Origin: Apostichopus japonicus
Lineage: Eukaryota; Echinodermata; Holothuroidea; Aspidochirotida; Stichopodidae
Length of the DNA stretch: 64,000 nt
Reading direction: 5' to 3'
Assembly: GCF_037975245.1 (NCBI RefSeq)
Contig: NC_092574.1
Coordinates: forward strand, 8,122,213 to 8,186,212
Below are positions 6,712 through 36,200 of this stretch, one piece after another (position 1 is the first letter of the stretch; every line of letters begins with the position of its first letter). Made by a program: the position numbers and the translations under genes. A model generated the notes under the pieces. The model did no database searches. It saw only the letters and a list, made by a program, of their open reading frames with translations, and was not told where the DNA came from.

Positions 6712-7019
6712 TCAGCTTTCACCACCGGCTATGTGCGTTAACCGATCTTTCACTTTTTCGTAGAGTAACTTCACTGCTGCTACCCTCTTGTGCTTGTAAA
6801 GCACTTTTGCTAGTTCAACGACCTTGAGGTCAGGCTTGGTCATTTCAAGAATATTTTGCATGGATTTATAGCGTTTCAGCTTATGAGCAATAGTATCATC
6901 CACTCCAAGGTCCTTGGCAATTTCGTAGAGATCCCCGCAGTGTTTAACGTCCTTCTCCACTAACTTTTCTAAGTCTGGCATATTTTGAAGTTGGCTATTC
7001 CTCATGTCCAAAATGTTGT
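6712..7019 (-). CDS. Gene A exon 10: death-domain-like fold and stop codon
   Basis: The acceptor is tttgcacatcag; the exon runs 308 nt to a TGA at 6714-6712. It fits a death domain: LEKLVEKDVKHCGDLYEIAK, then DLGVDDTIAHKLKRY (the usual W-x2-LA-x2-LG-x5-I stretch with Leu-Tyr in place of Trp), then KPDLKVVELAKVLYKHKRV and AAVKLLYEKVKDRL (the A-T-V-x2-L helix). The fold is called from hydrophobic spacing, so DD against another death-fold subclass needs a profile search. Confidence 0.75.
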
Positions 7020-10000
7020 CTGATGTGCAAAACAAAAATGAGGCACTTGCTATTAACCTTTGTATTCATTAATCTATGTATGGTGAATCCATGAAACAAA
7101 TCGTATATTAATGATCGGCATGTCGCACACTACACCCCCCCCCTCCCTCTCCCACCAACACACCTCCCCCTTCCTCCATCACCTCATGGCTTCAAGTGCA
7201 AAAAACCAAAGTGCATTGTGGTTTCGATGATGTATTAAACATGAGCTGTTTTCTTCATAAATCTGATGTGAGTGCGGGTGTGCGACATACTTGATCTTAA
7301 AAACATACAGTGAAAAGCAGTGACAAACAATAAATTCACAATCGCACAGGCTGTCATGAAATGATCATTGACCTCAACATCAGGCTTCTTGTACTAAATG
7401 TGATACATCAACATACTAAATACAACATCCATCCGTGTTGAAATATTGTGTAAAACATGATTTTCACAATTTGACCCATGGTGAACTCACACAACCATTG
7501 ACCACTGCCCACATTAAGGCTTCTTGTACTCAACGTGGTACAATTAGATACCAAATGTGGCATCTGTTCAATCTTCCCTTGCCATATTATGGTTAGGAAG
7601 GTGCGTTGGGGTAGAAAGACAAGTAAGAAGGAGTGAAGCAAATGTTTGTTTTTTTTAACTTCAAATGACCTTTGACCTACACCAAAAGCAATAAAAGGCT
7701 CCTTAAATTTGATATGGTACATCTACAAACCAAATATTCCCTGCTAGCAATATCATATTTACAAGCTTTTCACAATTTGACCCCTGGTCACCCTAAATTA
7801 CCTTTGACCTCCACTAAAACAATAGCATTCTGGTACTCAATGTGGCACTTCTACACACCAAACATGAAATTGGTGCGACATTCCCTTCTTCAGATATTGT
7901 GTTTACAAGCTGGGCTTGTCAATGCATTTAATCATAAAATTGTGGGTACTACACTTTCATAAAGAGGAAGGGAGGGGATTGGGCGCAGTATTTCTTTAAC
8001 ATGTTACGGGAGATTGTGAAATATTTCCATAAATGGCCCACATCTACGTGGAACTAAAATGGCCCTTTCTTGAAAAGTTTGTCTTCTATTTCCCATCAGT
8101 GAAGTGGTGTGAAGGGGTGGTCTTCACTGTTTAATGGGTACCCCATCTCATTGGTAGGACTTGGTAGAAAAAGAAAATTATGGACTCACTTTCTCTCAAG
8201 AGTCTCTGTAGCCTCCCCAAGTAATAATCTTCTTCTTCACCCGATGCCATGCATTGCTGATTCTGTTATACAAAGAAAAGAAGGCAAGGAAAATAGAACA
8301 TAAAATCAACTTGAAACCACATAAGAATTGTACTGGTGGGGTTTCACTTCAAGTGCTAGCAGGTTTTTTTTTTGTTTCTTTGAAAGTTCTAAAGGCCAAA
8401 TAAATGAACTTATAGGTTAGGTGAGAGGCAAAGAGAAGCAGAAAGAAAAGAAGGGGGAAAAGATGTGTTCGAGAATCTCAAGGTTGTTTTTTCCCCCCCC
8501 CCTTTTTTTTTGCAAATGTTCCCATGAGCCAGCTATCTTCAAAGGCAACAACCTTTTACTGAATTATATATGACAACTTAAAAACTATAAATATAAATTA
8601 AAATACAACCCTCTAATAAATCAGGATTACAAGCTTGACTTTCACAAGAAATATGAAGTGATCCAACTAGGTACGTATATTATAGTTTTGTCTGCAGAAA
8701 GTAGCCTGACATGTTGTCACAGGGTTTGGGGAAGCGGGGGGAGGGGTCTATTTGAAATATGGTACAACATCATTTAATATACATGTGCAAATTCAATGTA
8801 ATACCACCAAGACAAAATTTAATGCTACAGGGAGCAAAAATTGCCACAGGAGAAAGCAGCCAGACTTGATTTCCTCGTCAATTTGCATAAGGAGAAGAAA
8901 TGCCTTAAGGAATTCCTTTCACTTCATGACATCATCATGGCTAAATTAACTAACGAACTAACGCTATAAAATACACTGGTCAGGCGGTTTGGGGGGGGAG
9001 GGGAGAATGAAAATTGTAAGATCTCTGAGGAAGCGATCAATCAATCAATCAGTCTATCAATATGAGTATTTACCTCGGCCGGAACGGCAAAGTCTGGATG
9101 TGAAGATTCTATTATGCTGCATACACGTGCCATCTTCCTTATCTTAGCGGCTTTGAACACCCTTTTCATCACATCAAATTCCGAAAAGATATTCTGATCC
9201 ATAACAGTTGTCACAAAAACAGCAAGAGTGCCTATGCTGTCGGCAGAATTAGGGGTCAGTTCTTCGGCAAGGATGAAATATTGTTTGAGAGATTTGAGAA
9301 AGTCATCGTCCGTTTCTTCCTGAAGCTGCAACACCAAATCTGCAAAGCGACCTAAAATTGTAAGAAAAAAGTGGTCACCAAAACTATACGCCAATATTTG
9401 TTGACGGGGTTTACTTCTCTTAAGCACTATTCCGATTGCCACATTCAAAACGACTGTCCAGTGTCGAGACAAAGGATTAGAAAGCATTTTCAGCAACTTG
9501 ATCCAGATTTGAAAACAGTTTCTAGAAATGATTATTGTTGCATGAATTTTAACTTTGTAACACTGCTTAAACCTGCATTATGAAGTCAAAAAGACACAAA
9601 TTTCAGAATTGATAAGATATTCTTAGCGTAATTATTACTATGTTTTTTCATCTCCACAGTTAATGTGATCCTTAATCTTGTATACCTGCAATGTTCAACA
9701 CTAACTGGCCCCTTCACCCCCTTCGTGATATTGTTCGCTATCTCCCTCTTTCCCTGTAAAACACCGTTCACCATGATTCTTCCACATTATGACATACATT
9801 TGTCACACATCACACATAGCTTCCATTCATTCTGAGCATCGCCTGTGTAGGGTGGGCGAGGGGGAGGGGGGTGGGGGTCTGGACGGCAGCTCGGATGTAG
9901 GCCCCTTGTTTATTCTTTTATATTTTCTTTATAGCTCACTGAACAATTTGCTGTTATGTTTCCATACACAGTAATCTCAAAAGCTCACTTGTGACAGAAT

Positions 10001-13000
10001 TGCACATTTGTACAGCAAACGCATAAATGGATAGGTTTGGACGACAATCTGTCTCAGCTAGAGCTCGCACACAATTAATGGCTTTGTTTAATTGAATTCT
10101 AACCTGCTGGGTTAGGCACGTTATTGCCCTGAAGTCCGCCGTTAGGAACGTTATTGCCCTGAAGTTCGCCGTTAGGAACGTTATTGCCCTGAAGTCCGCC
10201 GTTAGGAACGTCATTGCCCTGAAGTCCGCCGTTAAGAACGTTATTGCCCTGAAGATCGCCAGGAACTGCAATGAAATCAAGAAAGACAAAAGTTCAAACT
10301 TGGTAACATTTTGGATGACAGACAAAAATGTCTTTCTTATTGACTAATGTTACTCTCGTTGCCTCCCCTAGGTACCCTAACATGATTCCCCCCACCACCT
10401 TATCTATTATTCTATTCTCTAGCCTGGCATACCCCTATTCAAACTCCTTGTTCAATAAGTCATTCATCTTCACATTCCCCTCTGCTGCCCTCCTTATTCT
10501 TCAATTATCCCTCAGCAACACATCTTCATTCTCTTCATCCTATTATTCTCCCACTCCCTACTCCACCACCCCCTCCACCCCACCCGCACCCCACACACCC
10601 TCCTGTGAGTATAATTCTTCTCTACCCACGCATGGTCTCTCAGCTTCACACGTTTCACAATCTACAGCGTAAATTTATTCAAAATTCACAGTTGTGAGTA
10701 GTGACCAGGTTACTTTGAGCAGGAGGATCGTATACAAACATGTTTTCTTTTCCATATCCTACATGGAAATGTTTTTGTATCCAAATAGAAAAAGTTTGGG
10801 GAACTAGATACTGAACTTGAGTACCTATGTGCAGTGGTATAACACTGTAGTGAATAGTAGCAGATTGACCTGTACAGAAAGGTCACAGACAGGAGCAATG
10901 CATGATGGGCAGCAGTCATCTTCTGACTATCTTATTGGACCACTAGAATGGGTGTATCTTTTACCCTCCCCCCCACCCCCTTCCCTCCCCCAAACAAAAC
11001 TGCATTAATGAAGTTACCTTGCAGCATTTCCATGGTCTCTCCATCGAATGTATCTGCAACACAGAAATTGGAAATGAACATACATTATTCATACCGAAAA
11101 AACAGACAAGAAGTCCTTTTTTTTTCGGTCGATACCATAATACACAAGGTTTCAAACATGACTGCAGACACACAGAATTTAATATTCTATTCACATGATT
11201 ATTGTCACATTTTGCGGTTATCAGCAGGCAGTCTTTCTAGCCACTGAGTCGTAAAGTTCCAAGAGCAGTCGGTTCACAGCTCACCGCTCATTGACTGAGA
11301 CCACCCATGCATCGATAACTGCATAGTTTAGGTATAGTCTTAGGTGAGTGCTGGGTACTTGAATGTGACCTCTTGAGATTAATCATCACACAGGAATAAA
11401 GGTGAGTCATAATAGTGGTAATGACACAACAAATTTAGCAGAAAATGAACAAAACAATTAGAAACTCCAATCTACAGTAAGAAACCTCAGTTTAATGACC
11501 AAGGTTCAGGGCGGGAGGATGGGATAGCGAGCATTCCTACATCCTCCGACCATCCCCCCCTCCCCCCTGCACCCCCATGCCCTTTATATTTTTTACACCA
11601 CCCCTTGTAGTAATGTTTAGTTTAGTAGAAGAAAGGATCAGGAAGGACATCTAAGTCCCCATTAAGGACCCTATAAGCATTCCTTATAGGGTCCTTATAG
11701 GGTAATGTATATAATAGCCACATACCACCATCTTCGCTGGTCATAGAGGCATTGCCTGACTTTCTTCTTTTGCTCCAAACCCCTGCAGATGAAGACAAAA
11801 AGAGCAAAAATAAGTGAGCAGAATGCTAGAAGTGTTGGAGTCATTACTAAGGACAGAATTATACATATATATGTGGAGAGCTGTATATGTTGCTAACCAA
11901 TCTCTGTTATAATTAGAATGCAAGAGACATACATAACCTTTAAAAATTTATACGAATCATATAATCTTTACCAAATGATCTTTCTCTCCCCTTAAAAGGA
12001 TTTTTTTTTTTTTTCATATTGAAGAAAATAATATTCCACATTGTTAGCTGAAAACGCCATCTCAAAATCTGGACCCTAACTTGAGAATTGGTCAATTTAA
12101 TGTAACCTATTTTGATTGGCTAACCCTCCAACTACTCCAGGAAGCTGGATCACAGTAAGGGCTCTAATGGTGTCATCTAGGAGAAATTTCTTCAGATGCT
12201 TTCCTTAGGCTGTTATAATCTTCTTGTTCATTTTATCGTTGAAAATTGATACCATTGAAATCTTTGTTTAGCTGTCAAAGTTCTCTGTAGTATTTTTTAT
12301 AGAGAACTTCACCTATGTGGATAAACGGTTGACAAATTATACAAAGAAAAGGAAAGACATTTTCATCTGAAATGACATTATCCATTCTGCTGTTACAAAG
12401 CTGCATTTACAAAATAAGCACAAAAATTGAACAATTCGTTATCTTTTACGATGCAAAATGCTACCAGGATGTGGTTTTTCCGCCGAAAAGATACTGAAAA
12501 GTTTCCGCATTTAGTCACAAGTGAGGCGTGGTATCATAGAATTCATTATGATTGATATTTAATGAATTTGCATGTCTGTCAGTTGAAACCGAGAAACCTA
12601 GCAGGTCAAACTTTGTTCAATGGATAAGTTCAATTTGTATCCATGAGAGAGTAAAGTCAGATTGATAGGATGTCATGTAGCACTGAATAAACTCACCCCT
12701 GCACTGCAGTGATATGTGATGATAAAGGCACTTTATGGCACAGCAAATGGTCACTACCAAGACAAGTACACCAGCAATCGCTGCAGAACCCATCGAGAAA
12801 ATGTTAGGCCCATTGGGCATTGGCCATGTGACGATTTCATTGGAAGGATTCACGGAGGATTCATCTGTATCTACCTCAGGCAAACTGACATCAAAAGCTT
12901 TCGTGACAGTGGGCAGTTTTGTGATGGTAGTTGGAGGCTGCGATGCTAAATCGGTGGCCTGTGTCGGTGATGTGGGGTCGTCATTCTCACGGCTCACAGT

Positions 13001-15284
13001 GGCCGACTGTGCTATGTACTCTTCCAGGACTGGAGGTGGCGACGTCATTTTCGGCTTTGGTTTGCAAGCTTCTGGTTTCTTACCGCGACTCGTAGAGCAA
13101 CGTCGACACGCACCAAGCTTTTCAAAATAGCTGCGGAAGGAGACGGGACGAGATTTGGAATGAAAGCAGCGGAAAGTGCATCAGATGCTATCAAAACATT
13201 TCTCAGTCGCAGTCGTAATTCGACGCACAGACTCTCGCAACTTGAGCAGACCATGCGAGTACGGGTTTAACAAAACCGTTTAAACGATTAACGCCACTTT
13301 TAATGGCCATGTTAAGAAATCGAGCCAGTTAATATGTCACTTGTAGAGAGCCATATAACTCCCCCAAATTTACCGGTTTGGATATATATACCATATGAGT
13401 ACAGTAACAAGACTGGTAATTGTCTCTGTGCATCATACTCAAGTGCTTTCCCATCTGCCCGACCTACTGAATGGGTAACGATTAAGTAGCGCGCCGTGCT
13501 TGGCGACCAAGTGATTTTTATTGGATGAAGAGTTCGGTGAAATACACGTAGATCAACATCTGAATGGGGAAAGTGGGCAGGGTTCCGTATATGGGATTTG
13601 AGGGTGAAGTGATAAGTGTTACAATGTTCAGACATGTAAGGTAGTTGGGAAAATTCAGTGCATAAGTAAACTAGGCATGGACAAGAAAGAGGAACAGAGT
13701 CATAAGTATTAAACCAATTCACACATATATAAGACAAGCATGCAAGCTATCAAATTTCAAATACAGACAGACAAACCAACAAAAAGTAGATTTTTGTTTG
13801 CTGTTGTTTTTTCACTCCAATTATATTCTGAGCGTGGGTATGGGAGCTGGCCAAATTGACATTCTCCTAACTGGATGCAGTAAATGTAAAAGCCTACACG
13901 ATACAACAACCAAAAAGTACTTCATTCACATTCTGTTGAATCCACACACTATTGAGAAATAACAATTGCATTCGATACAACCAAAAAGTACTTCATTCAC
14001 ATTCTGTTGAATCCATGCACTATTGAGAAATAACAATAGCATTCGACTTCATTGTTTGAATTCTTGAATTATGAACCGCAAAGCTATCGACTTTCAGTTT
14101 CTTGGTAAAACAGTCAGAAAATCAACAAAATGAATAAAGAATAAGGGAGGACTCACTCGATGTTCTACAAACCATGGGCAAAGACCCCCTAAGTGCAGAT
14201 CTGAAATTTGTTTTGGTTGGGTTGCTGGATTTTTTCCAGACGTAGCCAAATGTCTTTTTCGCAGCTTATCGACAGAGATCGATTAAGGCATTTTTGTTTA
14301 TCGTCGAGTCGTAGACAGAATGAGTTTTCTTAATGCTATTTTGAATATTGATTCTTAGGGGTGGGTTTGGTTGGTGGGGGGGGGGGGGCAGAGGGATCTC
14401 ACCGAGTGTGGCTCAATCCTGATGGAAAATGGAAAATTTTGCGGATCACTGCTTATGCCAGATCTAGTCAACAAAATATAACGCCTACTCAACGAAAATA
14501 AACGGTACATACCCCGGTCGACAGCCCCCACACACGGTGTCACTTATCCGGGTGCACCTGCTGATTACCACTCTATTCAGACAGTGCTGACACTGTTTAC
14601 ACGATGGCTCCACGTAATGCTCTTCATCTTGGTACCATCCCGCATCACACGCCCTACAGCTCCCTGGCCCGATGGACTCTTCGCAGTACTGTACGGTGGA
14701 AATGCATCAGTTTATTAAGTTCATCAAGTTTATTAATTATTAAAGACTTAATAGTCAGATGAAACGAGAACCCAAACGGGCACACTAAGATATGGTTCCT
14801 TGCTTTAATAGTGGAATATTAAAGTATTCTATACTGTCTTACAAATTCATGATGCCCATACGATGGCCAGCCAAAGGTTAAGAGATGCGAGTAGCGCATG
14901 CCCCCACGAGAGGTTGTACCTCCATCGTGGCTTTTCCTGAGTTTTGATTATTAACTATCAATGTGCACGTTTATTACTCTATATGATCAGAGAGGAGACG
15001 TTCGCCGAGAAATATTCAAAGGTCCATCACTAGATGAACTACAAGTCTAGTTTCAGAAACTTGGAGGTGCCTTACGTCTACTGCAGTTCCCTTTCCACAC
15101 GGCGTACACGAGTGGCATGCCTGTTGGTCGTTGTTGTAGAATCTTCCTACAGGACAATTCAAAATGCTTCGAGGATACACGAGCTGAAAAGAGGAGAGAA
15201 TCAGAGTATGGTGGAAAGAGTATATATGTCCATCCACATGTTGCAATCATGAGATTTTCACCCAAAAAAGAAACATAAAGGACA

Positions 15285-15356
<72 letters not shown>

Positions 15357-16531
15357 GATGCTGGTGTGAGTAACTCATTACTCCTTGATAGATATTCCCT
15401 TCTTTTATTGACAAAAGACACATCTTCAAAGAGAAAAGAAGGAGGGGAAAAAAACTGGTCACAAAACTGCTTATCATCTGCAAATGGCCTGTGTAGGTTA
15501 AGTTATAGGTGGTGATGGATGGTAGAGGTGGGGGTGGGGGATGGGAGAGAATGGGGGGAGCTCACATTTCAATCTCAGCCGGATTTTTTTCTTAGGGAAA
15601 TGAAATGATTAAAGGTACGACTTAATCAAGGACACATTTAAGATAATTGGTGTGGATAATTAAGATTAGGCACAACAGAAGGGTTGGGAAATGAAAAGGA
15701 AATCAAATCAACCCCAAGTGAAAAAAATTTATTTCAACATAACATTGACTGATTCGATTGCAACTGATTTACACATTGAAGGAAAACAACAGCACAATGA
15801 ACTTATACATATTTATGAAAACCTGGTACACAAAACAAATACATGATGAAGGAGAGCATGTACTGTCAGATTGTCTTTAAAAACAATTAATCATAATTAA
15901 TTAGTTGTTTTGTTTTCAAGCTCCCACCCACCATAAAAACATTGGCAACCAGGCCTAGAATATACAAACTTTTAGCTACTAGCTGATGAATGCCATTTGC
16001 AATAAAAAGAGCTACTGGCAAAAATATCTAGTTCTCAGTGTCTTTGTCCTGAATAATAACACACATCAGATTAAATATACATGCTGTATGGCCTTTGGGG
16101 GGGGGGGGTGGGGGGAGTTGTTACAGTAAGTACAAAAATCATGCCATTCTTTAATTGATGATTGTTAACCCAGTCACCATGAGTTGAAAAATTAATTTTT
16201 AATACATTTTCAGACAGAGAGTTGTCATGGGCCCATTTTTGTTTTTCTTACTGGTAAATGATAACATCCAACTGGCAATTAATTAACCCAGCAAAGACAA
16301 TGAGTCCAGATTTAAAGGGTCTGACGACTCGGTTACAACCCATCGTTTGGAAGATTGGATCTAAATCACAGAGGCAAAAAAAAAAAAAATCCTGCAAATT
16401 ATGTATCGGCAGCTGTTTGACCAACCTTCTTAGATTCCTGCAAGGGGTAAGAGTTGACGGCCAATGGCACAATGATGGCAGTGAGGATAAAAAGGTCCAC
16501 CCCTCTCATTACCACATCTGACATCTTCACC
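6712..16531 (-). CDS. Gene A: TNF-receptor-like type I receptor with cytoplasmic DED and death domain (10 coding exons)
   Basis: Joined coding exons are 16524-16426, 15183-15076, 14688-14513, 13130-12697, 11782-11726, 11053-11018, 10265-10104, 9351-9074, 8262-8190 and 7019-6712. They sum to 1731 nt, exactly 577 codons with the stop, and every junction keeps phase. The predicted 576-residue protein has a signal peptide (about 1-25), TNFR cysteine-rich repeats (about 40-150), a Thr/Pro-rich stalk, a transmembrane helix (about 243-264), five 11-residue repeats (about 305-357), a death effector domain (about 361-442) and a death-domain-like fold (about 490-570). TNFR ectodomains bind TNF-like ligands outside the cell; DED and DD folds assemble caspase-8-type or related complexes by homotypic contact. 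Inferred role: a plasma-membrane receptor signalling to apoptosis or NF-kB with a built-in FADD-like DED-DD tail. The order of folds is read from the sequence; function is inference. Ligand and partners are unknown. Confidence 0.83.
8190..8262 (-). CDS. Gene A exon 9: DED-DD linker
   Basis: This 73-nt exon is needed to reconcile phases: exon 8 ends in phase 0 and exon 10 starts in phase 1, and this exon is exactly phase 0 in, 1 out. It has a good acceptor (tttctttgtataacag) and donor (gtgagt). It encodes a charged helix including EEEDYYLGRLQRLLREN. Confidence 0.72.
9074..9351 (-). CDS. Gene A exon 8: death effector domain
   Basis: The acceptor is cttacaattttag and the donor gtaaat; 278 nt, phase 1 in and 0 out. 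The sequence follows the DED pattern: an opening helix (FADLVLQLQEE), a second helix (DDFLKSLKQYFI), a middle helix pair (GTLAVFVTTVMDQNIFSEFD) and a last segment (VMKRVFKAAKIRKMARVCSI). The usual R-x-D-L in the final helix is replaced by RKMA, so the charge triad is incomplete. The assignment is by eye; another death-fold subclass is possible. Confidence 0.7.
10104..10265 (-). CDS. Gene A exon 7: five 11-residue coding repeats
   Basis: The acceptor is gatttcattgcag and the donor gttaga; 162 nt, phase 1 to 1. In the spliced frame it holds five near-identical 33-bp units, each reading roughly GLQGNNVPNG plus one variable residue (D, G or E). Changes between copies are few (N/D, P/L, G/E). No known domain; it is a flexible hydrophilic spacer between membrane and DED. 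A different frame is also open here and gives a misleading translation. Confidence 0.8.
11018..11053 (-). CDS. Gene A exon 6: 36-nt microexon
   Basis: The microexon lies between acceptor tctgtgttgcag and donor gtaact, phase 1 to 1. It adds DTFDGETMEMLQ, an acidic stretch of the cytoplasmic linker. Since it is phase-symmetric it could be skipped without shifting the frame. Confidence 0.7.
11726..11782 (-). CDS. Gene A exon 5: juxtamembrane cytoplasmic exon
   Basis: This 57-nt exon lies between the acceptor cttcatctgcag and the donor gtatgt, phase 1 to 1. It encodes VWSKRRKSGNASMTSEDG, whose KRRK cluster is the expected positive stop-transfer charge just inside the membrane. Confidence 0.78.
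12697..13130 (-). CDS. Gene A exon 4: partial third CRD, mucin-like stalk, transmembrane helix
   Basis: The acceptor is cgtctccttccgcag and the donor gtgagt; 434 nt, phase 2 in and 1 out. The start (YFEKLGACRRC) completes a partial third cysteine-rich repeat. A Thr/Ser/Pro-rich stalk of roughly 85 residues follows, then the helix AAIAGVLVLVVTICCAIKC (about residues 244-262) with a short basic and cysteine-containing cytoplasmic flank. The ORF continues past 12697 only as read-through into the intron. Confidence 0.85.
13907..14047. repeat. 71-bp tandem duplication
   Basis: Two adjacent copies of a block containing caaccaaaaagtacttcatt and ctattgagaaataacaat, in the gene A intron between exons 3 and 4, with very few differences. 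Confidence 0.88.
14513..14688 (-). CDS. Gene A exon 3: second TNFR cysteine-rich domain
   Basis: The acceptor is ccaccgtacag and the donor gtatgt; length is 176 nt, phase 0 in and 2 out. It encodes CRACDAGWYQ, then C-x2-C-x2-C (CKQCQHC) and TVCGGCRPG, the classical spacing of a TNFR repeat. Its end (CGGCRPG, continued by YF in exon 4) resembles the CGDCLPxF join of the EDAR/XEDAR/TROY group and of gene B. Confidence 0.87.
15076..15183 (-). CDS. Gene A exon 2: first TNFR cysteine-rich domain
   Basis: The exon lies between a pyrimidine-rich acceptor (cctcttttcag) and the donor gtaagg and encodes 36 codons, phase 0 to 0. The residues CPVGRFYNNDQQACHSCTPC fit the opening of a TNFR repeat (C, Pro-x-Gly-x-Phe/Tyr, then C-x2-C-x2-C). 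The next cysteine of the repeat is supplied by exon 3 (YCEES). Confidence 0.85.
15288..15352. repeat. (TA)n microsatellite
   Basis: About 60 bp of uninterrupted TA in the gene A intron just upstream of exon 2. Confidence 0.95.
16426..16531 (-). CDS. Gene A exon 1 (first coding): signal peptide
   Basis: A strong acceptor (gcctgcag) sits just above 16531, so a noncoding 5' exon must lie further upstream; I did not locate it. Translation can start at the ATG at 16524-16522 or the in-frame ATG at 16509-16507. The second places a basic residue before the hydrophobic core FILTAIIVPLAV and makes the more typical signal peptide. The exon ends in phase 0 at the weak donor AAG|gttggt, which is the least certain boundary of this gene. 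Confidence 0.65.
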
Positions 16532-23958: not shown

Positions 23959-24263
23959 TCAGCCATGATGGCACATCGCAGACTGATGCTTTTGACAACG
24001 TGTATTCCGATAGAGGTCATTCGCTAAGTCCTTGCGTCCGACTGTGCAAAGGCCTAACACTAGGACGCATGGTTTCTCTATAGAATATTGGTCAAGCTGT
24101 TCGAGTGTTGTAGAAATTTCACTAAACGTTGAACATTCTTCTCTGTGACGTTCTTTGAAATCTTCTAACCCAAGAGAGAGATACGTGATAAGGAGTTTCA
24201 TTTGTTTCGTCTTAATGGCACCATTAATGCGAATAATCGCGGAGGCGTGCTTGAGATTGTTAT
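23959..24263 (-). CDS. Gene B exon 13: death effector domain and stop codon
   Basis: Acceptor ctctatctcctgcag, 305 nt, phase 1 in, ending in TGA. It follows a DED well: KHASAIIRINGAIKTKQMKL, LLITYLSLGLEDFKERH, EISTTLEQLDQYSIE and PCVLVLGLCTVGRKDLAND. The last contains the R-x-D-L motif typical of DEDs. About 20 residues follow the domain. Death effector domains pair with DEDs of FADD, caspase-8/10 and c-FLIP in known systems; the partner here is unknown. Confidence 0.82.
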
Positions 24264-27200
24264 CTGCAGGAGATAGAGAAAGAGGAGGAAATATGATATA
24301 ACGTAAATCCAATTGAACGGCAAACAAAACCAGAACACACACACACATGCCCGAGCAACAATAACAACAACGCCATAAACGTAACATCATTATCAACAAT
24401 AGCAATGCCACAATAACCGTCATGCAACAATGTCAAATACACATATGAACGAACACCAATAATAACGAAAACAAAATAACACAAATAACAACAACACCCT
24501 TACTAACAACGCCATCATATAACACAATCATCAATGTTATGAGACTGCACACATGAAACAAAAGTAACAACAGCTACCACACCCACGAATACGGTAAACC
24601 AGCGAAGGCTCCATTCGTTGGATATGTCATTTCGGGAATCAGTGGAATATCGAGATATTGTCTGACTGCTTCCGATATTTGAAGAAATAGAAGGACTTTA
24701 CAACGAAAAACGAGGGAACTCTGTGTTATTACGTAGTCATCAATATGGTCATTCGACAATGAGAACACACCACTATTAATATCAGTTGACACCCCACTTG
24801 CTCCCGTAATCTTTACCATCTTGACGTAATTTTAAGTATTTCAGAGGGCTCTTGTAGCTTTTGAGGGCTATACATAGTTGCCCTTATGTCTGGATTCATT
24901 ACTTCTACTGTTTACTCATTTTCCTTTAGTACATGTATCACAATCGCAGTTCGACTACTAATCGATATTAATTCCCCTGATAGATACCGTCGACTACATG
25001 TTCTTGCTAATTTTTATTACGTCTTCCAAATTACAGTGCCCCAAGATTTCATGCCGCCTGTGGACAGAATGCACATGTAGGAAAGCCTGTTTCTATTATC
25101 ATCCTTATAATCTTCATTTACAGTGTTGATATGCATTGTTCAAGTAGTTTAGCCTAATAGTAATACGGAGTGGGTTTTTTTTTGGACGTTTCTAGGTACT
25201 GTGACAGCGTTCTCTGCCATAATTACACAGTCAGTAACACCTCCCCCTGGACATTTCTTGAGTAAGGTTAATTCGTATTCATTTTCGTCCCTGCTAAAGT
25301 GAAGTCTTTCGCTTCACTACCTACCCCCCCCCCCCCACCTGGACCCTTAACCTGTTGGATCTTTCCTTCGGGATGGAATATCGGTAGATTTTATCTGATT
25401 GCTTCCGATTTTGAAGAAAAAAAAATGATAACACGTAACAACGAACACTATTGACATGTGACAAAGAGAGCACTGAACTAGTAACAGTGAACATCGTTAT
25501 GACACAACCTTCAATAATATGAAACTACACACATGAACCAAAAGCACCAACATCATTAAAAAAAAAACGCCGTAAAGATAATACAATCTTCAAAAACATG
25601 ATAAAACACAAATGAACAAACAGCAATGACAAGACACACCATTAACATTATCAGTCACAACGCCATACTGACACAATCATCAATAATATGAAAAACACAT
25701 GAACCAACATCAATGCCACCAAGAGCAACACCACTAACACCAGCATCAGTAACATGATAATGCTCAATCTAAGGACATTCCATGGACCCCAGTCGAGGGC
25801 CCGATTTCTAAGAGAGATCCTAATTAACCTACCCTGTCCTCCTTCGGTCAACGGTGGGTTACCACATTCCTAGAAAGGAAAACAGAGTAAAGTAATGATT
25901 ATTCAAGCGCACAGAACAGGCATAATTTAATAGCATAACATTCACCAACTTCGAGTAATGTTTGCTGTTGTCTTTTTGGCCATTCCTTAGGGACAAACCA
26001 TTACATTGGTTCCTCCCAGGTTCCTCCCTATCAGATATGTTGACAGTGTTCTAGGCAGCCCTTTCAATGAATTGGTCATAATGTTACTAGTATGTAGAAA
26101 GGAAGCATATCCCTAACACTGACAAACCGAATATTTGGTTCTTTACCAAATATATAATGCTAATATTTTAAACCAGTTTTACTCTGAGTCCGATACAGGG
26201 GAAGGTGTACAGTGCGAGGTGTAGAATTGGAAAGTGTTTATAGGTGATGTGTACTTATCAAAGACGATGCACCCTCCCCCTCCCCGAGGGTATGCATGTA
26301 CCTTCCCCACAAGGGTTGCTAAACAACCCCTTTTAAACTTTAAACATTCTCGTGAATACTTTCCAAATGTTATTTATGATGAATCTCTTTGTAGGACAAT
26401 GAGAAAAATTACTTACGTTCCCGGGGTTCTGAAAATGATCGTCACCGCTGTAACGGAAAAGAAGGGGAATAAACAGTAGGTGGCCAGCGTTTAAAACTTT
26501 CTTCAATGGACATTTCTACTCATTGTTGCGGAGGGTGCGGGCGGAGGGGGGCAGATACTGTGAACGGTACGGGGTTGTAGTTTGAACCAAATGTCCCAAG
26601 AATACCAGTAAAATTAGTGTCCCACAACCCTATAAATTAAGGTTTCAACACGAAATGGGCCCATTCCTTTCCCACTCCTCGTCCAAAACTTATGGGAAGG
26701 GGAGGGGGAGGGGGCACGTCCACTCATTTACCCTCAAAATATATTCGACTGTAAATGAGGCTCTAGGTTTGGGTATTGCTCATGCATTCAGGCATTTATT
26801 ATTCCGAAGTTTGTTCTATTTTATGTAAGCGTCCACTTCGTGCCCATAATTTTTTTTTTTTATAAAGGTTGCTTGTTCCTATATGTTGTATTCTTGGGGA
26901 AAGGCGGGGTGGGAGGGGGGTGGGTGGAGGGTGTATCACACAAAGTATTGGTAACTCATATAACATAATATGCATATACCGGTACCCTTTATAGACTAGG
27001 AATAAAACCCTTACCTTACGAATGACCTCACACTGTTGGTACTTGTTGTGTCTAGCAAGGCAGAACTAGTGTCACTTGTGCCGGTACTTCCCATATTATC
27101 TGCAAAATTGGAAAAAAAGTAACACAAAATCATATGCAGCCGCCCATGGTCGGTGGTTAGAAGAGCATGTTGTCAATATCCTCTGATATCAAGATCGGAA

Positions 27201-30200
27201 GAGAGTCATGCATTTAGGATTTATAATTTATTGCAAGACACTATATCACAATCTGACAGATAGATAAATCCAAGAACACGCCATCTAAGTATGTTGTATT
27301 TATATGGACATTCCTCCTCCTCCCCTCCCCACCCCCCCATCTTCACAACCCCAGGCACCAGATCTTCCTTCCATCATGGTCCGGCATACAACAAATTCTA
27401 TGTATTTTAAGGAGAGTGAGCAGATATCAATCAGCACTTCATTGGAAATACAGGCCGTCGGGAGGATGGGTTGATTTTCATACATACCTTTATACTATAA
27501 TACAAATCATAACGAAAGCCAACTTTGTACAATATGCATTTCACGAGAACAGACAACTTATCCAGTTGGAAATATTGCTTATATAACTTGTACTTTCAGG
27601 TCTCTCTGCAAAAAACACTGGTGCTTACTTTCTAACAGGTTCCGACCTGTTCATACTGTCAATACTAGTGCTTTGAAACATGACATGAACATACAGTTTA
27701 GAGTGGCACTAGCAACACTATAGCAAAATGTTCCCATCTGGACGCACAACCATGCACGAATGTAGTGAACAAATGAACAGCTAACCTCTAATTACCACTA
27801 CCACCCCCACTCCCCATTCCCACCCACCCCATCCCGCCTCCCGACTCCAATGTATAACAGGAGTCATATCGTGTCATTACAGACACGACCGAGCTTAAAA
27901 GGTTTCCTCCATTCTAAGATGTACATGGGTGTGTCCACTTTATATACATCAAAGTGAATGCACAGAAATCCCCACCTTTATATTACCAGGAATGTGCCAA
28001 CGCTGGGCGGCACTGGGCGGCCCCGCCCAGCACTAAATATTACTAAAAATTGTCTTAAAAATCGTGAATCCCGCCCAGCACTATTTACATCTAAAATCCC
28101 GACATTCCTAACCATATATTCACAAAAACTATAAAAAAAAAAAGTAAATTGTTAGCAAAACTAGTACTTGTGTATGTGCTTAAAATGCTACACAAGTGCC
28201 AGCATTTTGGCATCTGAGCACCTTCAAAAATCGAAAATTTTCTCAAAGGGGAGGGGGCCGCCCCTCCCCCCTTAGACCCCTCCCCCATGACGGCGATCAA
28301 TATACCCAGCACTCAGGACATCCTGGGCACATTCTTGTATAACTGTGTCCAATGTATGGTTTATCATTCTATACGCGATAGACAATAAATGGCTACGCTG
28401 GTTAACAACAGTTACGTAATTGACTTACGTAGTTCAATATCATTTGTTGATGGATCCATTTGATCGGTTCTGCCATTCCCTGCAGGGTAAAAATGTATAT
28501 GAACAAGTATCAATGCGCTGAAATGGTTACTTTTAAATACCTGTGTGAAAGTTAATAGGTTTAATGAAAGGTGTATGTATGTATGTATGTATGTATATGT
28601 GATCTTCCCGCAAGCAGGAACTCGCGAAAGAAGCCATGAAGGCTTGTAGACTCGCAAGCTGACCGAAGCCAATCTCTCGGCACACATCCATTTAACGTCC
28701 AGTGTTGACATGCATTGTTCAAGTAGTTTAGCCTAATAGTAATACGGAGTGTTGTTTTTTGACGTTTCTAGGAACTGTGACAGCTTTCTCTGCCATAACT
28801 ACATCGTCAGTAACACCTTCCCATTGACATTTCTTGAGTAAGGTTAATTCGTATTCATTTTCGTCCCTGCTAAAGTGAAGTCTTTCGCTTCACTACCTAA
28901 CCCCCCCCCCCCCCCCCACCTGGACCCTTAACCTGTTGGATCTTTCATTCGGGATGGAATATCGGTAGATTTTATCTGATTGCTTCCGATTTTGAAGAAA
29001 AAAATGATAACACGTAACAACGAACACTATTGACATGTGACAAAGAGAGCACTGAACTAGTAACAGTGAACATCGTTATGACATAACCTCAATAATATGA
29101 AACTACACACATGAACCAAAAGCACCAACATCATTAAAAGAAAAAACGCCGTAAAGATAATACAATCTTCAAAAACATGATAAACACAAATGAACAAACA
29201 GCAATGACAAAACACACCATTAACATTATCAGTCACAACGCCATACTGACACAATCATCAATAATATGAAAAACACATGCACCAACATCAATGCCACCAA
29301 GAGCAACACCACTAACACCAGCTGCAGTAACATGATAATGCTCAATCTAAGGACATTCCATGGACCCCAGTCGAGGGCCCGATTTCTAAGAGAGATCCTA
29401 ATTAACCTACCCTGTCCTCCTTCGGCCAACGGTGGGTTACCACATTCCTAGAAAGGAAAACAGAGTAAAGTAATGATTATTCAAGCGCACAGAACAGGCA
29501 TAATTTAATAACATAACATTCACCAACTTCGAGTAATGTTTGCTGTTGTCTTTTTGGCCGTTCCTTAGGGTCGAGCCATTACATTGGTTCCTTCCAGGCT
29601 CCTCCCTATCAGATATATTGACAGTGTTCTAGACAGCCCTTTCAATGAATTGGTCATAATGTTACTAGTATGTAGAAAGGAAGCATATCCCTAACACTGA
29701 CAAACCGAATATTCGGTTCTTTACCAAATATATAATGTTAATATTTTAAACCAGTTTTACTCTGAGTCGATACAGGGGAAGGTGTACAGTGCGAGGTGTA
29801 GAATTGGAAAGTGTTTAAAGGTGATTTCTACTTATCAAAGACGATGCACCCCCCTCCCCAGGGTATGCATGTACCTTCCCCACAAGGGTTGCTAAACAAC
29901 CCCTTTTAAACTTTAAACATTCTCGTGAATACTTTCCAAATGTTATTTATGATGAATCTCTTTGTAGGACAATGAGAAAAATTACTTACGTTCCCGGGGT
30001 TCTGTAAATGATCGTCACCACTGTAACGGAAAAGAAGAGGAAAAAACAGTAGGTGGCCATCGTTTAAAACTTTCTTCAATGGACGGTCATTTCTACTCAT
30101 TGTTGCGGAGGGTGCGGGGGGCAGGTAGTACGGACGGTACGGGGTTGTGGTTTGAACCAAATGTCCCAAAATACCAGTAAAATTAGTGTCCCACAACCCT

Positions 30201-33200
30201 ATAAATTAAGGTTTTAAAACGAAATGGGCCCATTCCTTTCCCACTCCTCGTCCAAAACTTATGGGAAGGGGAGGGGGAGGGGGCACGTCCACTCATTTAC
30301 CCTCAAAATATATTCGACTGTTAATGAGTCTCTAGGTTTGAGTATTGCTCATGCATTCAGGCATTTATTATTCCGAAGTTTTTTCTATCGTATGTAAGCG
30401 TTCTCTTCGTGCCCATAATTTTTATTATAAAGGTTGCTTGTTCCTTTATGTTGTATTCTTGGGGAAAGGCGGGGTGGGAGGGGGTGGGTGGAGGGTGTAT
30501 CACACAAAGTATTGGTAACTCATATAACATAATATGCATATACCGGTACTCTTTATAGACTAGGAATAAAACCCTTACCTTACGAATGACCTCACACTGT
30601 TGGTACTTGTTGTGTCTAGCAAGGCAGAACTAGTGTCACTTGTGCCGGGAATTCCTATAGTATCTGCAAAATTGGAAAAAAGTAACACAAAATCATATGC
30701 AGCCGCGCATGGTCGGTGGTTAGAAGAGCATGTTGTCAATATCCTCTGATATCAAGATCGGAAGAGAGTCATGCATTTAGGATTTATAATTTATTGCAAG
30801 ACACTATATCACAATCTGACAGATAGATAAATCCGAGAACACGCCATCTAAGTATGTTGTATTTATATGGACATTCCTCCTCCTCCCCTCCCCACCCCCC
30901 CCCCCCCATCTTCACAACCCCAGGCACCAGATCTTCCTTCCATCATGGTCCGGCATACAACAAATTCTATGTATTTTCAGGAGAGTGAGCAGAAGTCAAT
31001 CAGCACTTCACTGGAAATGCAGGCCGTGGAGGATGGGTTGATTTTCATACATACCTATATACTATAATACAAATCATAACGAAAACAAAGTTTGTATTAT
31101 ATGCATTTCACGAGAACAGACAACTTATCCAGTTGGAAATATTGCTTATATAACTTGTACTTTCAGGTCTCTCTGCATAGCACTGGTGCTTACTTTCTAA
31201 CGGGTTCCGACCTGTTCATACTGTCAATACTAGTGATTTGAAACATGACATGAACATACAGTTTAGAGTGGCATTAGCAACAATAGAAAAAGGTTCCCAT
31301 CTGGACGCACAACCATGCACGAATGTAGTGAACAAATGAACAGCTAACCTCTAATTACCACTACCACCCCCACTCCCCATTCCCACCCACCCCATCCCGC
31401 CTCCCGACTCCAATGTATAACAGGAGTCATATCGTGTCATTACAGACACGACCGAGCTTAAAAGGTTTCCTCCATTCTAAGATGTACATGGGTGTGTCCA
31501 CTTTATATACATCAAAGTGAATGCACAGAAATCCCCACCTTTATATTACCACGGATGTGCCAACGCTGGGCGGCACTGGGCGGCCCCGCCCAGCACTAAA
31601 AATTACTAAAAATTGTCTTAAAAATCGTGAATCCCGCCCAGCACTATTTACATCTAAAATCCCGACATTCCTAACAATATATTCACATAAATTTAAAAAA
31701 AAAAGTAAATTGTTAGCAAAACTAGTACTTGTGTATGTGCTTAAAATGCTACACAAGTGCCAGCATTTTGGCATCTGAGCACCTTCAAAAATCGAAAATT
31801 TTCTCAAAGGGGAGGGGGCCGCCCCTCCCCCCTTAGACCCCTCCCCCATGACGGCGATCAATATACTCAGCACTCAGGAAATCCTGGGCACATCCCTGTA
31901 TAACTGTGTCCAATGTATGGTTTATCATTCTATACGCGATAGACAATAAATGGCTACGCTGGTTAACAACAGTTACGTAATTGACTTACGTAGTTCAATA
32001 TCATTTGTTGATGGATCCCTTTGATCGGTTCTGCCATTCCCTGCAGGGTAAAAATGTATATGAACAAGTATCAATGCGCTGAAATGGTTACTTTTAAATA
32101 CCTGTGTGAAAGTTAATAGGTTTAATGAAAGGTGTAGAGGTCCAGATGATACATGACAGGGGTCCGAGTCAATTTAGGGGCCAGGGACAATTTGCAAAAT
32201 GGGAAATGTATTCACAATTTCCTAATATATTTAAGGACAAAATGAGGAATGCAAAAAAAAGGGGGGGTTAGGGGGTTACGTGCGATAGTGGTTTTGGTTA
32301 TAACGGCATAAATGTTCATAATTGTGGGCGGTTGCAATGAAACGAGTGGTAACAGGAGATGCAAACACGAAGCTCGCCCCAGAAAAATCCGTTAGGGCTA
32401 TCAGCCCCTCCCCCATCGGCAGACAGCATCTTAGACTAATCCCCTGGACGACTTAACATCTCCCTTCCCAAGCAGTACAACAAGTGTGATGCGTCCCTGG
32501 TGATATGTAACGATACACTGTTTGGGGAATACTTGCAATGTTGGCATAATTATTTACTGTTTGCAGTGACGGGTGTGATGCATGATTGTGATAGTGATGG
32601 TTGTGAAGCAGTAACTGTCCGAGTGGTGACTGTGATGTAATCTTTCTTGGTTTTGGTGGTGGTAACAGTGAACCGAGTGCGACGGTAACAGTTGTAAGTG
32701 TTGAAAGTGTGGTGTGTGAGGTTGTCCAAAGTGTGGTGTTGAGGTTGTTGAAAGTGTGGTGGGTGAGGTTCATCTTGGTTCTGGTGGAGGTTGTGATGAA
32801 ACGAGTGTGTTGGTGATGGTGGTGATGATATGAGTGTATTGGTAGTGGTGATTTTGATAATGTGAGTGTGGGAAGATGGTTGTGCAAATGTTTCTTGGTT
32901 GTGGTGATTGATAGGATGATATGATTGTGGTGTTGATGGTTGTGGTGATATAAGTGTGTTGGTATAGTGGCGATGTTGATGTTAGCATGCATGGGTGATG
33001 GTTGTACATGTGTTTGTAGGTTTTGCTGATTGTTAGGATGAGATGATTGTGGTGGTAATTGTCGTGATGACATAAGTGTGGTGGTGATGGCTGTGATGAT
33101 ATATATGTGGTGTTTAAGTGGGGATTGTGATGTTAGCATGGGGTGATGACTGTCAATGTGTTTCTTGGTTGTGGTGATTGTTGGGATGATATGATTGTGG

Positions 33201-36200
33201 TGCTCATGGTTGTGATGACATAAATGTGGTGGTGGTGATTGCGATAGTGGTGTTACTATGGGGGGATGGTCGTACATGTTTAGTGATGTATGAGTCTGAC
33301 AGCCGTGATGGTGGTGGTTTTAACTTGGCCAAATCGTCTCTTAATTTTAGTGGTTACTGCTATGTATGAGTCTTATTGTGCTAGTTATGATGATATCAAT
33401 GTTTCGTTCATGGGTGTGTTGCTATATGTTGAACATGTGTGGTGTTTGCTATGATGTAAGTGTGGTGACGCGGGTCGCAAATTCTGATGGTAGTTCTGAT
33501 GTTATGATTTCAATGGTGATGGCTGGCTCTGTGGTGATGTGGTAGTGGTGATTATGACGTCACAAACTATCACGATTTCCCAAAACTAAAACGAAAACTA
33601 CAGGTACGTATATGCACCCAATGACCTTACGACCTTGAAAACCTTGCAGATAATAAACATGTGCGTGCACTTGAGATTAAGTGGTTGTTCGGAACTTCTT
33701 ATCCAAAACGTTGAACTTACTTTTGACGATGACCAGTGCCACCATGGTTCCTAGTAATGCTACCACGAGCACACTAACTATAACAATCATGACAGAAGTG
33801 GATGATATTTGCCATGGCGAATATGACATGCCCGGAGGTACTTTGTTGTTTCCATTGCCTTGATTAAAACGACGGGAGGCTTGGGTGTTATTGGACATTT
33901 CAGATGGAGAGGATTCTTGAAGGGTAGGAGTATTTGATGGCGTCACCGTTGGTGTAGTGGTGGGACAGTCAGTGGTACATGGCTGACACATTCCTAAATT
34001 CATGTTAAAAGTGAACCTAAATTGGAGATGAGAACGAAAATGAAATATGTTTTTAATTTTTTAATTTTTTTTATATAAAGAACGGGTGAAACACTGGTAG
34101 TGGGGGAGGCTTTTAAGAGGCCAAATGGTGGATTCTGATGCATATTTTAGACCACAAATGAAGCGTTTCAGAGTGGGCAAATGAAGCCCTCAATATGATC
34201 CCAATGGACAGCATACATGGTTGGTTGACTTAAAAAATCTGTGCTAACAATTACGTTCACATATCTGTGTAGTTGTTTCCAACCACCACCCCTATTACCC
34301 CGTACCAACCCCCCCCCCCCACCGCTGATCCTCGACAGGGTTCTCGCCTGCTGCTGAGTAATATTACTTAAAACAGTAAGTTGAGACGATACAGCCAGTT
34401 TATAATTAACTATTTTGATAAGATATGCAAATTACAAGTATGATAATGGATATAATTCATAAATTCAGTTTGTTTGCCAGGAATGTGCATCACAGTTCTC
34501 TCTCGATTTGACTCAAATTATTCTAACTTGATTTTACGAAGACATTGTTAGTGTTTCTACTTTGTTCACGATTTGATTTATTCATGAATGTAACTTTTCA
34601 TTCTTAAACAACAAGCCTTATCTGGTGTAATTTACAATTTCGCAAATTCAAAACACGAATATACCAAGTACGGTACCGTAGGCCTTAGTAAGTGGGGAGT
34701 ATACTTAGTATTCTCAAAAGAATAATTTAGTTGGCAAACAGTCCAGTTTTTTATCGGGCAAATTGAAATGGTCCATGAAAATGCGTTGGTTACTCACTTC
34801 GGCAAGCAGTCTCCACACTCTGTATCTTGTTTTGCTGAACATTCTTGTATAACGTGCCTATCTTTACAGTAGCTGCATGTACTACAATACATGTCGTTGC
34901 CACTTTGGAATGTTCCTGGTTCACACGGTTGACAAACACCGCCCTCACCATCTCCCCAACCACAGTCCTGGAAGACAAAAGATTTAGAAAAAAAAGAAAA
35001 ACAAATTTTAGTTGAGTTTGACAAATTGAAATATTCGAGTAGATGATGAGAAATCTTAATTTTCTTTCCTTCAATATTCCTTATTCGTATGTTTGCATAT
35101 ATTTGATGTTAACTAGTATGAAAAGTTACCGGTTGATTGACGACATTTGAAAATATATAATCAAATTAATTAATTGCTCGTTCAGGAAACCCTCGCTTGG
35201 TGGAAAATATATAGACTGCCTTAGTTTGAGCAATTGTTATCGTGTAACGTTATGTGGTGTCCAATGTAACTACAACCCAATTCCCCACAAGCGGTTTTGA
35301 TTAAATTTAACAGAGCCTTCAAGAAATGTTTTTCTCTCCTCTCCTTGCGTTCCCTTGAAGTCAAGGGCGTAGGAACCGGGGGGCTGGGGGCGCCAGCCCC
35401 CCAGTGAAAAATGTGGAGGGGCGGAAATATCATTCCGCCCCCCCCCTCTTCGCAAGTCAGGAAACCCCTTTTTCATTTCCAAATGAGAAAAAAATCTCAT
35501 TTGGAGCACCAAATTGCATCTAAGGCCTGGTGAAAATACAAAATTAAGTTTACAAAATGGAGTGGGTTTTGAAGTGTACTATATTGCACCAAATTGCATC
35601 TGAGGCTACCTGGAAATGTAAAAAATTCCAAAGGGGAGGGGGACACCCCCTCCCCTTAGACCCCTCCCCCAGGCCCGCCATCAGTCTTCAGCCCCCCCAC
35701 TCAAAAATTCACCACCGCCCCCTCCCCAACCCCCTACTACTTGACAAAACTGTTTACTTCATATTATTGTAAGTGGTCTCGTTCCAACCTATGGATAGGT
35801 TCTTACGACGGAAAAGTTCAAGGTCATCACAGTGACGTCATTCACTGACATGGGTGCTGCTCAAGATCGTTGCAGTGTTTCAAAATTCCTAAATTCGCAT
35901 CAATTACGTCGGAGAAGAATAAACGATGTTTTTATTCTCCCTTTTCATACCTTCCCTGTGTGCTATTTGAAAACTATGACATATAAACTAAACGATGTAT
36001 GAAAAGGAGAGATTTTTTATATATAGGGTGTTCCGAAAGTTCTCTCTCTATTTAAAAAAAAAGAAAAGATTTTTAAAGATACTCTAAACACCATGCATAC
36101 GGTAATTGTTATTGTTTTATATAGGCTACATATATATTTATAGATGTAGTAGAGTCAGTTTCCTTATTTGTTTTCCCTTTCTTCCGCTATTACATAGCAA

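Follow-up and report, generated by a model that had tools for sequence, protein, structure and literature searches.

A tandem pair of TNF receptor genes in the sea cucumber Apostichopus japonicus and a candidate DED-death domain tail in one of them

Can a tumour necrosis factor receptor (TNFR) carry the domains of its downstream adaptor within its own tail? This question is raised by a gene, here called gene A, on the minus strand of a 64,000-nucleotide stretch (C14:8122213-8186212, hereafter the window) of the 671.6 Mb Apostichopus japonicus genome. A preliminary description of the locus had proposed a receptor ending in a death effector domain (DED) followed by a death domain (DD), which is the order of the adaptor FADD, and able to nucleate a caspase platform without FADD. 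Our analysis supports one gene with a TNFR ectodomain, a membrane helix and a helical tail. Beyond this, we tentatively read gene A as a TNFR-superfamily receptor, one of a tandem pair with gene B, in which exons 8 and 10 would encode, in FADD order, a DED-like and a DD-like domain, both strongly diverged. This reading is supported by the gene model, the NCBI protein P0001, the TNFR match, the transmembrane helix, the leanings of profiles and structure models for exons 8 and 10, and the plan of paralogue B.

Gene model and receptor part of gene A

Gene A runs from its start codon at 16524 to 6712 and comprises ten exons with AG/GT junctions in compatible phases, which join into 1731 nt, that is 577 codons including the stop, or 576 aa (Table 1). 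The exact count of 577 codons in the preliminary description is reproduced and the junctions agree with it, while the 5' end that it set at 16531 moves to the start codon. The gene was previously annotated by NCBI, as a single gene without a named function: P0001 (A. japonicus, 'uncharacterized protein isoform X2', 566 aa) is matched at full coverage and 98% identity, and differs from the gene A protein solely in having one copy fewer of the 10-residue repeat of exon 7. This coding repeat occupies positions 10111-10254 of the window as 4.8 copies of a 30-nt unit; the one-copy difference from P0001 is possibly a length polymorphism seen in transcripts.

The encoded protein opens with a signal-peptide-like leader (residues 5-23, its second most hydrophobic stretch), followed by cysteine-rich repeats and one pass through the membrane; a spacer that contains the exon 7 repeat then leads to a tail (exons 8-10) that is largely helical. 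Its most hydrophobic 19-residue stretch, residues 245-263 with a mean hydropathy of 2.6, provides the single membrane helix that had been predicted. Against a Pfam cut-off of 29.4 bits, the TNFR_c6 family (PF00020) falls short on the whole protein, with 27.4 bits (E 4.4e-6), and passes on exon 3 alone, with 29.6 bits; a search with the ectodomain brings up TNFR1 chains at E about 2e-5, and the proposed cysteine repeats are borne out. As a control for the genome search, PF00020 gave a match at E<=1 in one of 14 control genomes, and none over the cut-off. Judged on its sequence, gene A has both of the TNF receptor superfamily features that we looked for, TNFR_c6 repeats and a single transmembrane helix, and we take it to be a real gene, a real TNFR and a member of a real tandem pair.

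Identity of the tail exons

The tail was compared with profiles built from 40 DED and 28 DD exons of the same genome (20 of the 106 DED and 8 of the 150 DD matches, as loci, plus 20 further exons of each kind), using end-to-end alignment scores. Exon 8 scores 23.6 on the DED profile (z score 4.39), a value reached by 2 of 5000 full shuffles and by 46 of 5000 that preserve the hydrophobic pattern, and stands at chance level on the DD profile (z 0.58; 1297 of 5000 shuffles). The top score of the genome's 28 DD exons on the DED profile is 17.4, below that of exon 8. Exon 10 scores 16.5 on the DD profile (186 of 5000 shuffles, 339 with the pattern kept) and 20.7 on the DED profile (254 and 793, respectively); its reversed sequence scores 23.4 on the latter. 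With hhalign, exon 8 is closer to DED (E 0.005 local) than to DD (0.32), and exon 10 closer to DD (E 0.008 global, 0.02 local) than to DED (0.25 and 0.07), with probabilities of at most 7% throughout. Plain HMMER with first, smaller profiles gave 2-3 bits.

The profiles were also run on 113 decoys, each a 100-aa piece of an open frame in the window or in a locus longer than 2000 bases; the window's two gene regions, the middle of short loci (the death exons that had matched), loci L029 and L082, and pieces that bore X or were of low complexity had been dropped beforehand. At z 3.5 the DED profile retained one decoy and the DD profile two, all of them top rows and, by their letters, genuine death exons: a DED exon present in both lists (L075) and the DD exon of a receptor on C23 (L078). 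The z score of exon 10 for DD is reached by nine of the 113.

Structure models add a further element. The model of exon 10 has seven predicted helices, six of them at 16-97, with a predicted local distance difference test (pLDDT) score of 53; among the nine chains ranked by Foldseek, the top two rows are death-domain entries (Fas/FADD 3ezq_B and p75NTR 2n80). The exon 8 model, made from the single sequence, has five helices and a pLDDT of 73, and its top rows are helical chains other than death folds. The exon 10 model thus hints, at low confidence, at the death fold expected of a FADD-like tail; the exon 8 model lends it no such support.

Several observations weigh against a DED-DD tail. PF01335 (DED) and PF00531 (Death), the families that the preliminary description had named for a check, have no match at E<=10 in exons 8 and 10 or in the protein as a whole, and the curated threshold is thus missed. 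The exon 8 model resembles MA3-type helical hairpins, and among the best 50 of 112 Foldseek matches and the 50 entries of a second list, the only death fold seen is the PEA-15 DED, at rank 30 with E 5.3. On the DED profile, the scores of its 40 members start at 56, against 23.6 for exon 8, and a further decoy exceeds exon 8 with a raw score of 24.2, at z 2.74. The lowest DD member scores 78 on the DD profile, against 16.5 for exon 10; since the DD members lie at 78 or above and DED exons of the genome reach 29.6 on the same profile, exon 10 is unsupported by the profile test alone.

Direct assignment of exons 8 and 10 to DED and DD through Pfam was set aside with the lack of any match at E<=10. 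The weak Pfam rows belong to unrelated families: IcmF-related_N (E 0.023) and Transposase_28 (0.21) for exon 8, Clathrin (0.047) and Sep15_SelM (0.082) for exon 10. A sequence search of the PDB returned three sequences at E<=10 for each of exon 8, exon 10 and the last exon of gene B, none of them from a death fold; the best of these, matching exon 8 at E 6e-5, is a designed repeat protein in which no single stretch passes alone. DEDs carry a charge motif of the RxDL type. In an alignment by eye, the corresponding site is RKMA in exon 8, against RKDL in the last exon of gene B.

The own-genome profiles thus give weak support to a DED-like exon 8, with hhalign leaning the same way, and exon 10 appears weakly DD-like by profile and by a low-confidence model. 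The leanings follow the FADD order, with neither domain secure. We infer the DED-like and DD-like identities from this combination, and regard DED-DD as a fair but unproven reading of the tail: the proposed order agrees with the direction of the profile tests, and it passes no curated threshold and meets an exon 8 model that lies nearest to other helical chains.

Protein-collection searches reach only relatives with exact five-residue words in common, the whole-protein search scoring the 8000 candidates richest in such words. Within this scope no homologue was found outside A. japonicus, and the search for orthologues with the same domain order was to this extent unsuccessful; at E<=10 the tail has no relative in the collection except P0001. 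Searched in six frames, the genome yielded exons 8 and 10 themselves and no second copy of either.

Gene B and the alternative explanations

The eight-exon frame without leader that we assembled for gene B is borne out by two NCBI proteins, P0002 (446 aa) and P0003 ('putative TNFRSF member EDAR-like', A. japonicus). P0002 goes beyond this frame in having a leader, which was already among our candidates, and in carrying the spacer exons twice; P0003 either lacks the membrane helix or has it out of frame. Genes A and B share the intron phases that follow the leader and each of the next three exons (0, 0, 2, 1), and the last exon of gene B starts in phase 1, as do exons 8 and 10 of gene A. The TNFR exon of gene B scores 28.9 bits for TNFR_c6, just under the cut-off. 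For its last exon, the only Pfam match at E<=10 is PF01335 (18 bits, E 0.0034, cut-off 35.9), which is weaker in the full protein (E 0.065); the own-genome profiles place the exon nearer DD (z 3.58, 4 of 5000 shuffles) than DED (z 2.46, 64 of 5000).

Comparison of this exon with exons 8 and 10 gave no similarity by BLASTP. In local alignments with PAM250, exon 10 reaches z 4.0 (0.4% of 2000 shuffles) and exon 8 is equalled by 2.9%; with BLOSUM45/62 the shares are 10-49%, and in global alignments 6-95% of 3000 shuffles. Because similarity varies with the matrix, we make no claim that these exons descend from each other. Within gene B, a tandem duplication of about 3.57 kb (window about 25.8-32.1 kb, minus strand) has doubled the small spacer exons; both copies are present in P0002, and one in P0003.

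Table 1. Coordinates of gene A exons and of gene B within the window
Feature	Position	Strand	Content
Gene A exon 1	16426..16524	-	start codon and hydrophobic leader, signal peptide-like; matches P0001
Gene A exon 2	15076..15183	-	first TNFR cysteine-rich repeat; PF00020 22.4 bits, under cut-off, at 15079-15156
Gene A exon 3	14513..14688	-	second TNFR cysteine-rich repeat; PF00020 29.6 bits, over cut-off
Gene A exon 4	12697..13130	-	end of cysteine-rich region, stalk, transmembrane helix (about 12781-12725)
Gene A exon 5	11726..11782	-	juxtamembrane; matches P0001
Gene A exon 6	11018..11053	-	spacer; matches P0001
Gene A exon 7	10104..10265	-	spacer with 30-nt (10-aa) tandem repeat
Gene A exon 8	9074..9351	-	putative DED-like domain, residues 358-450
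Gene A exon 9	8190..8262	-	linker; matches P0001
Gene A exon 10	6712..7019	-	putative DD-like domain, residues 476-576, and stop
Gene B	23959..38687	-	leader, TNFR repeats, transmembrane helix, spacer, C-terminal death-fold-like exon; NCBI P0002, P0003
Gene B last exon	23959..24263	-	305 nt, death-fold-like, contains RKDL

The presence of a single such exon in gene B bears on a first alternative, which we consider unlikely: just one of the two tail domains, either the DED-like exon 8 or the DD-like exon 10, would be a true death fold and the other an unrelated helical segment, making gene A a single-death-fold TNFR like gene B or p75NTR, with no fused FADD. The evidence is indeed split in the manner expected, exon 8 having profile but no model support and exon 10 a model hint with poor profile support; against this, hhalign leans the two exons to two different death families, in FADD order.

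Somewhat more doubtful still is that the tail holds no death fold at all, being a lineage-specific helical region whose profile leanings arise by chance from a helical, leucine-rich composition. Such a region would be consistent with the absence of Pfam death matches from the tail and of death-fold chains from the PDB sequence lists, with the likeness of the exon 8 model to MA3-type hairpins, and with the pLDDT of the exon 10 model. Composition of this kind is countered by the 46 in 5000 pattern-keeping shuffles that reach exon 8 and by the DED profile, on which no non-death decoy attains z 3.5, as well as by the last exon of gene B, where PF01335 is the sole family matched. Finally, the model might merge two genes, one for the TNFR ectodomain and another for the DED/DD part. 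Room for this is left by P0001 being an annotated model and by our own single-gene structure being read from sequence, and it is very improbable: the ten exons share one frame of 577 codons with compatible junctions, the NCBI annotation is a single protein over the full length, and paralogue B, whose parts come in the same order, is twice annotated as one protein (P0002, and P0003, in which the membrane helix is not intact).

Genomic setting, possible mechanism and known systems

If gene A does combine a DED-like and a DD-like domain, it does so in a genome well supplied with the ordinary parts. TNFR_c6 has 16 matches at E<=1, eight of them over the cut-off at five loci, including gene A; PF01335 has 106 matches at E<=10, of which 32 are over the cut-off; and PF00531 has at least 150, all of the 150 scored among 204 candidates. 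At C23:16.81 Mb, TNFR repeats lie 3 kb from an ordinary death domain. On C16, at 1.864-1.908 Mb (C16:1864920-1908188; L011, L012, L025, L075), five DED and three DD exons on one strand form three DED-then-DD pairs and two further DEDs; one unit was read, and the pairs look like tandem FADD-like genes. The proposal of a caspase platform 'without FADD' therefore does not follow from the sequence.

Two clusters were also observed in this survey. Closely similar DED exons at C16:10.24-11.09 Mb (L010, L013-L020, L022, L023, L026-L028) look like a recent expansion, and C12:19.4-34.2 Mb holds a large cluster of death-domain exons, with about half of the 150 scored PF00531 matches by an eye count.

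Under a DED-DD reading of the tail, a TNF-type ligand would trimerise the receptor and cluster its tails, on which a death-fold assembly could then nucleate. The distal DD-like domain might pair with other death domains, or with FADD itself, and the proximal DED-like domain might present a DED surface to DED-bearing caspases or adaptors at the membrane. This route would operate beside the conventional FADD route, not necessarily replacing it, with death or NF-kB-type signalling as candidate outputs. A bolder version seems rather unlikely to us: that the tail contains a whole FADD-like DED-DD adaptor, that ligand binding could by itself be enough to start a DED filament that activates caspases at the membrane, and that gene B, with its single death fold, would make the two genes a stepwise series. 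Were the tail DED-DD, the receptor-adaptor-caspase chain of extrinsic apoptosis could shorten by fusion of receptor and adaptor, and tandem gene B would allow the gain of the second tail domain to be traced. The excerpts of PMC7161275 report a cloned FADD from the sea cucumber Holothuria leucospilota and name a sea cucumber caspase-8 in a reference title, and in those of PMC10923776 the H. leucospilota FADD, when overexpressed, is said to trigger apoptosis of HEK293 cells; having both genes cloned in a relative would make the fused-adaptor idea testable (PMC7161275, in part).

How does gene A compare with known systems? A search of the open-licence PMC literature found no description of a DED-bearing TNF receptor, a result that does not prove absence. 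In death receptors such as TNFR1 or p75NTR, TNFR repeats are followed by a transmembrane helix and a death domain; gene A differs by an additional DED-like domain between the membrane and the C-terminal domain, both tail domains being under the Pfam threshold. The tandem paralogue family of gene B (P0003 and P0002) has a single C-terminal death-fold-like exon with a weak Pfam DED match. Compared with the DED-DD adaptor FADD, the gene A tail is attached to a membrane receptor, has a linker exon between its domains and shows very low sequence similarity, and the A. japonicus genome also has the separate FADD-like DED/DD exon pairs on C16. The nearest precedent for such short-cutting is offered, in the excerpts of PMC2575513, by the amphioxus TNFR-caspase 'shortcut' receptors, in which a TNFR ectodomain is likewise fused to a downstream cell-death part and the adaptor is skipped: there, one step further downstream, the fused part is a caspase, whereas in gene A it would be adaptor-like domains.
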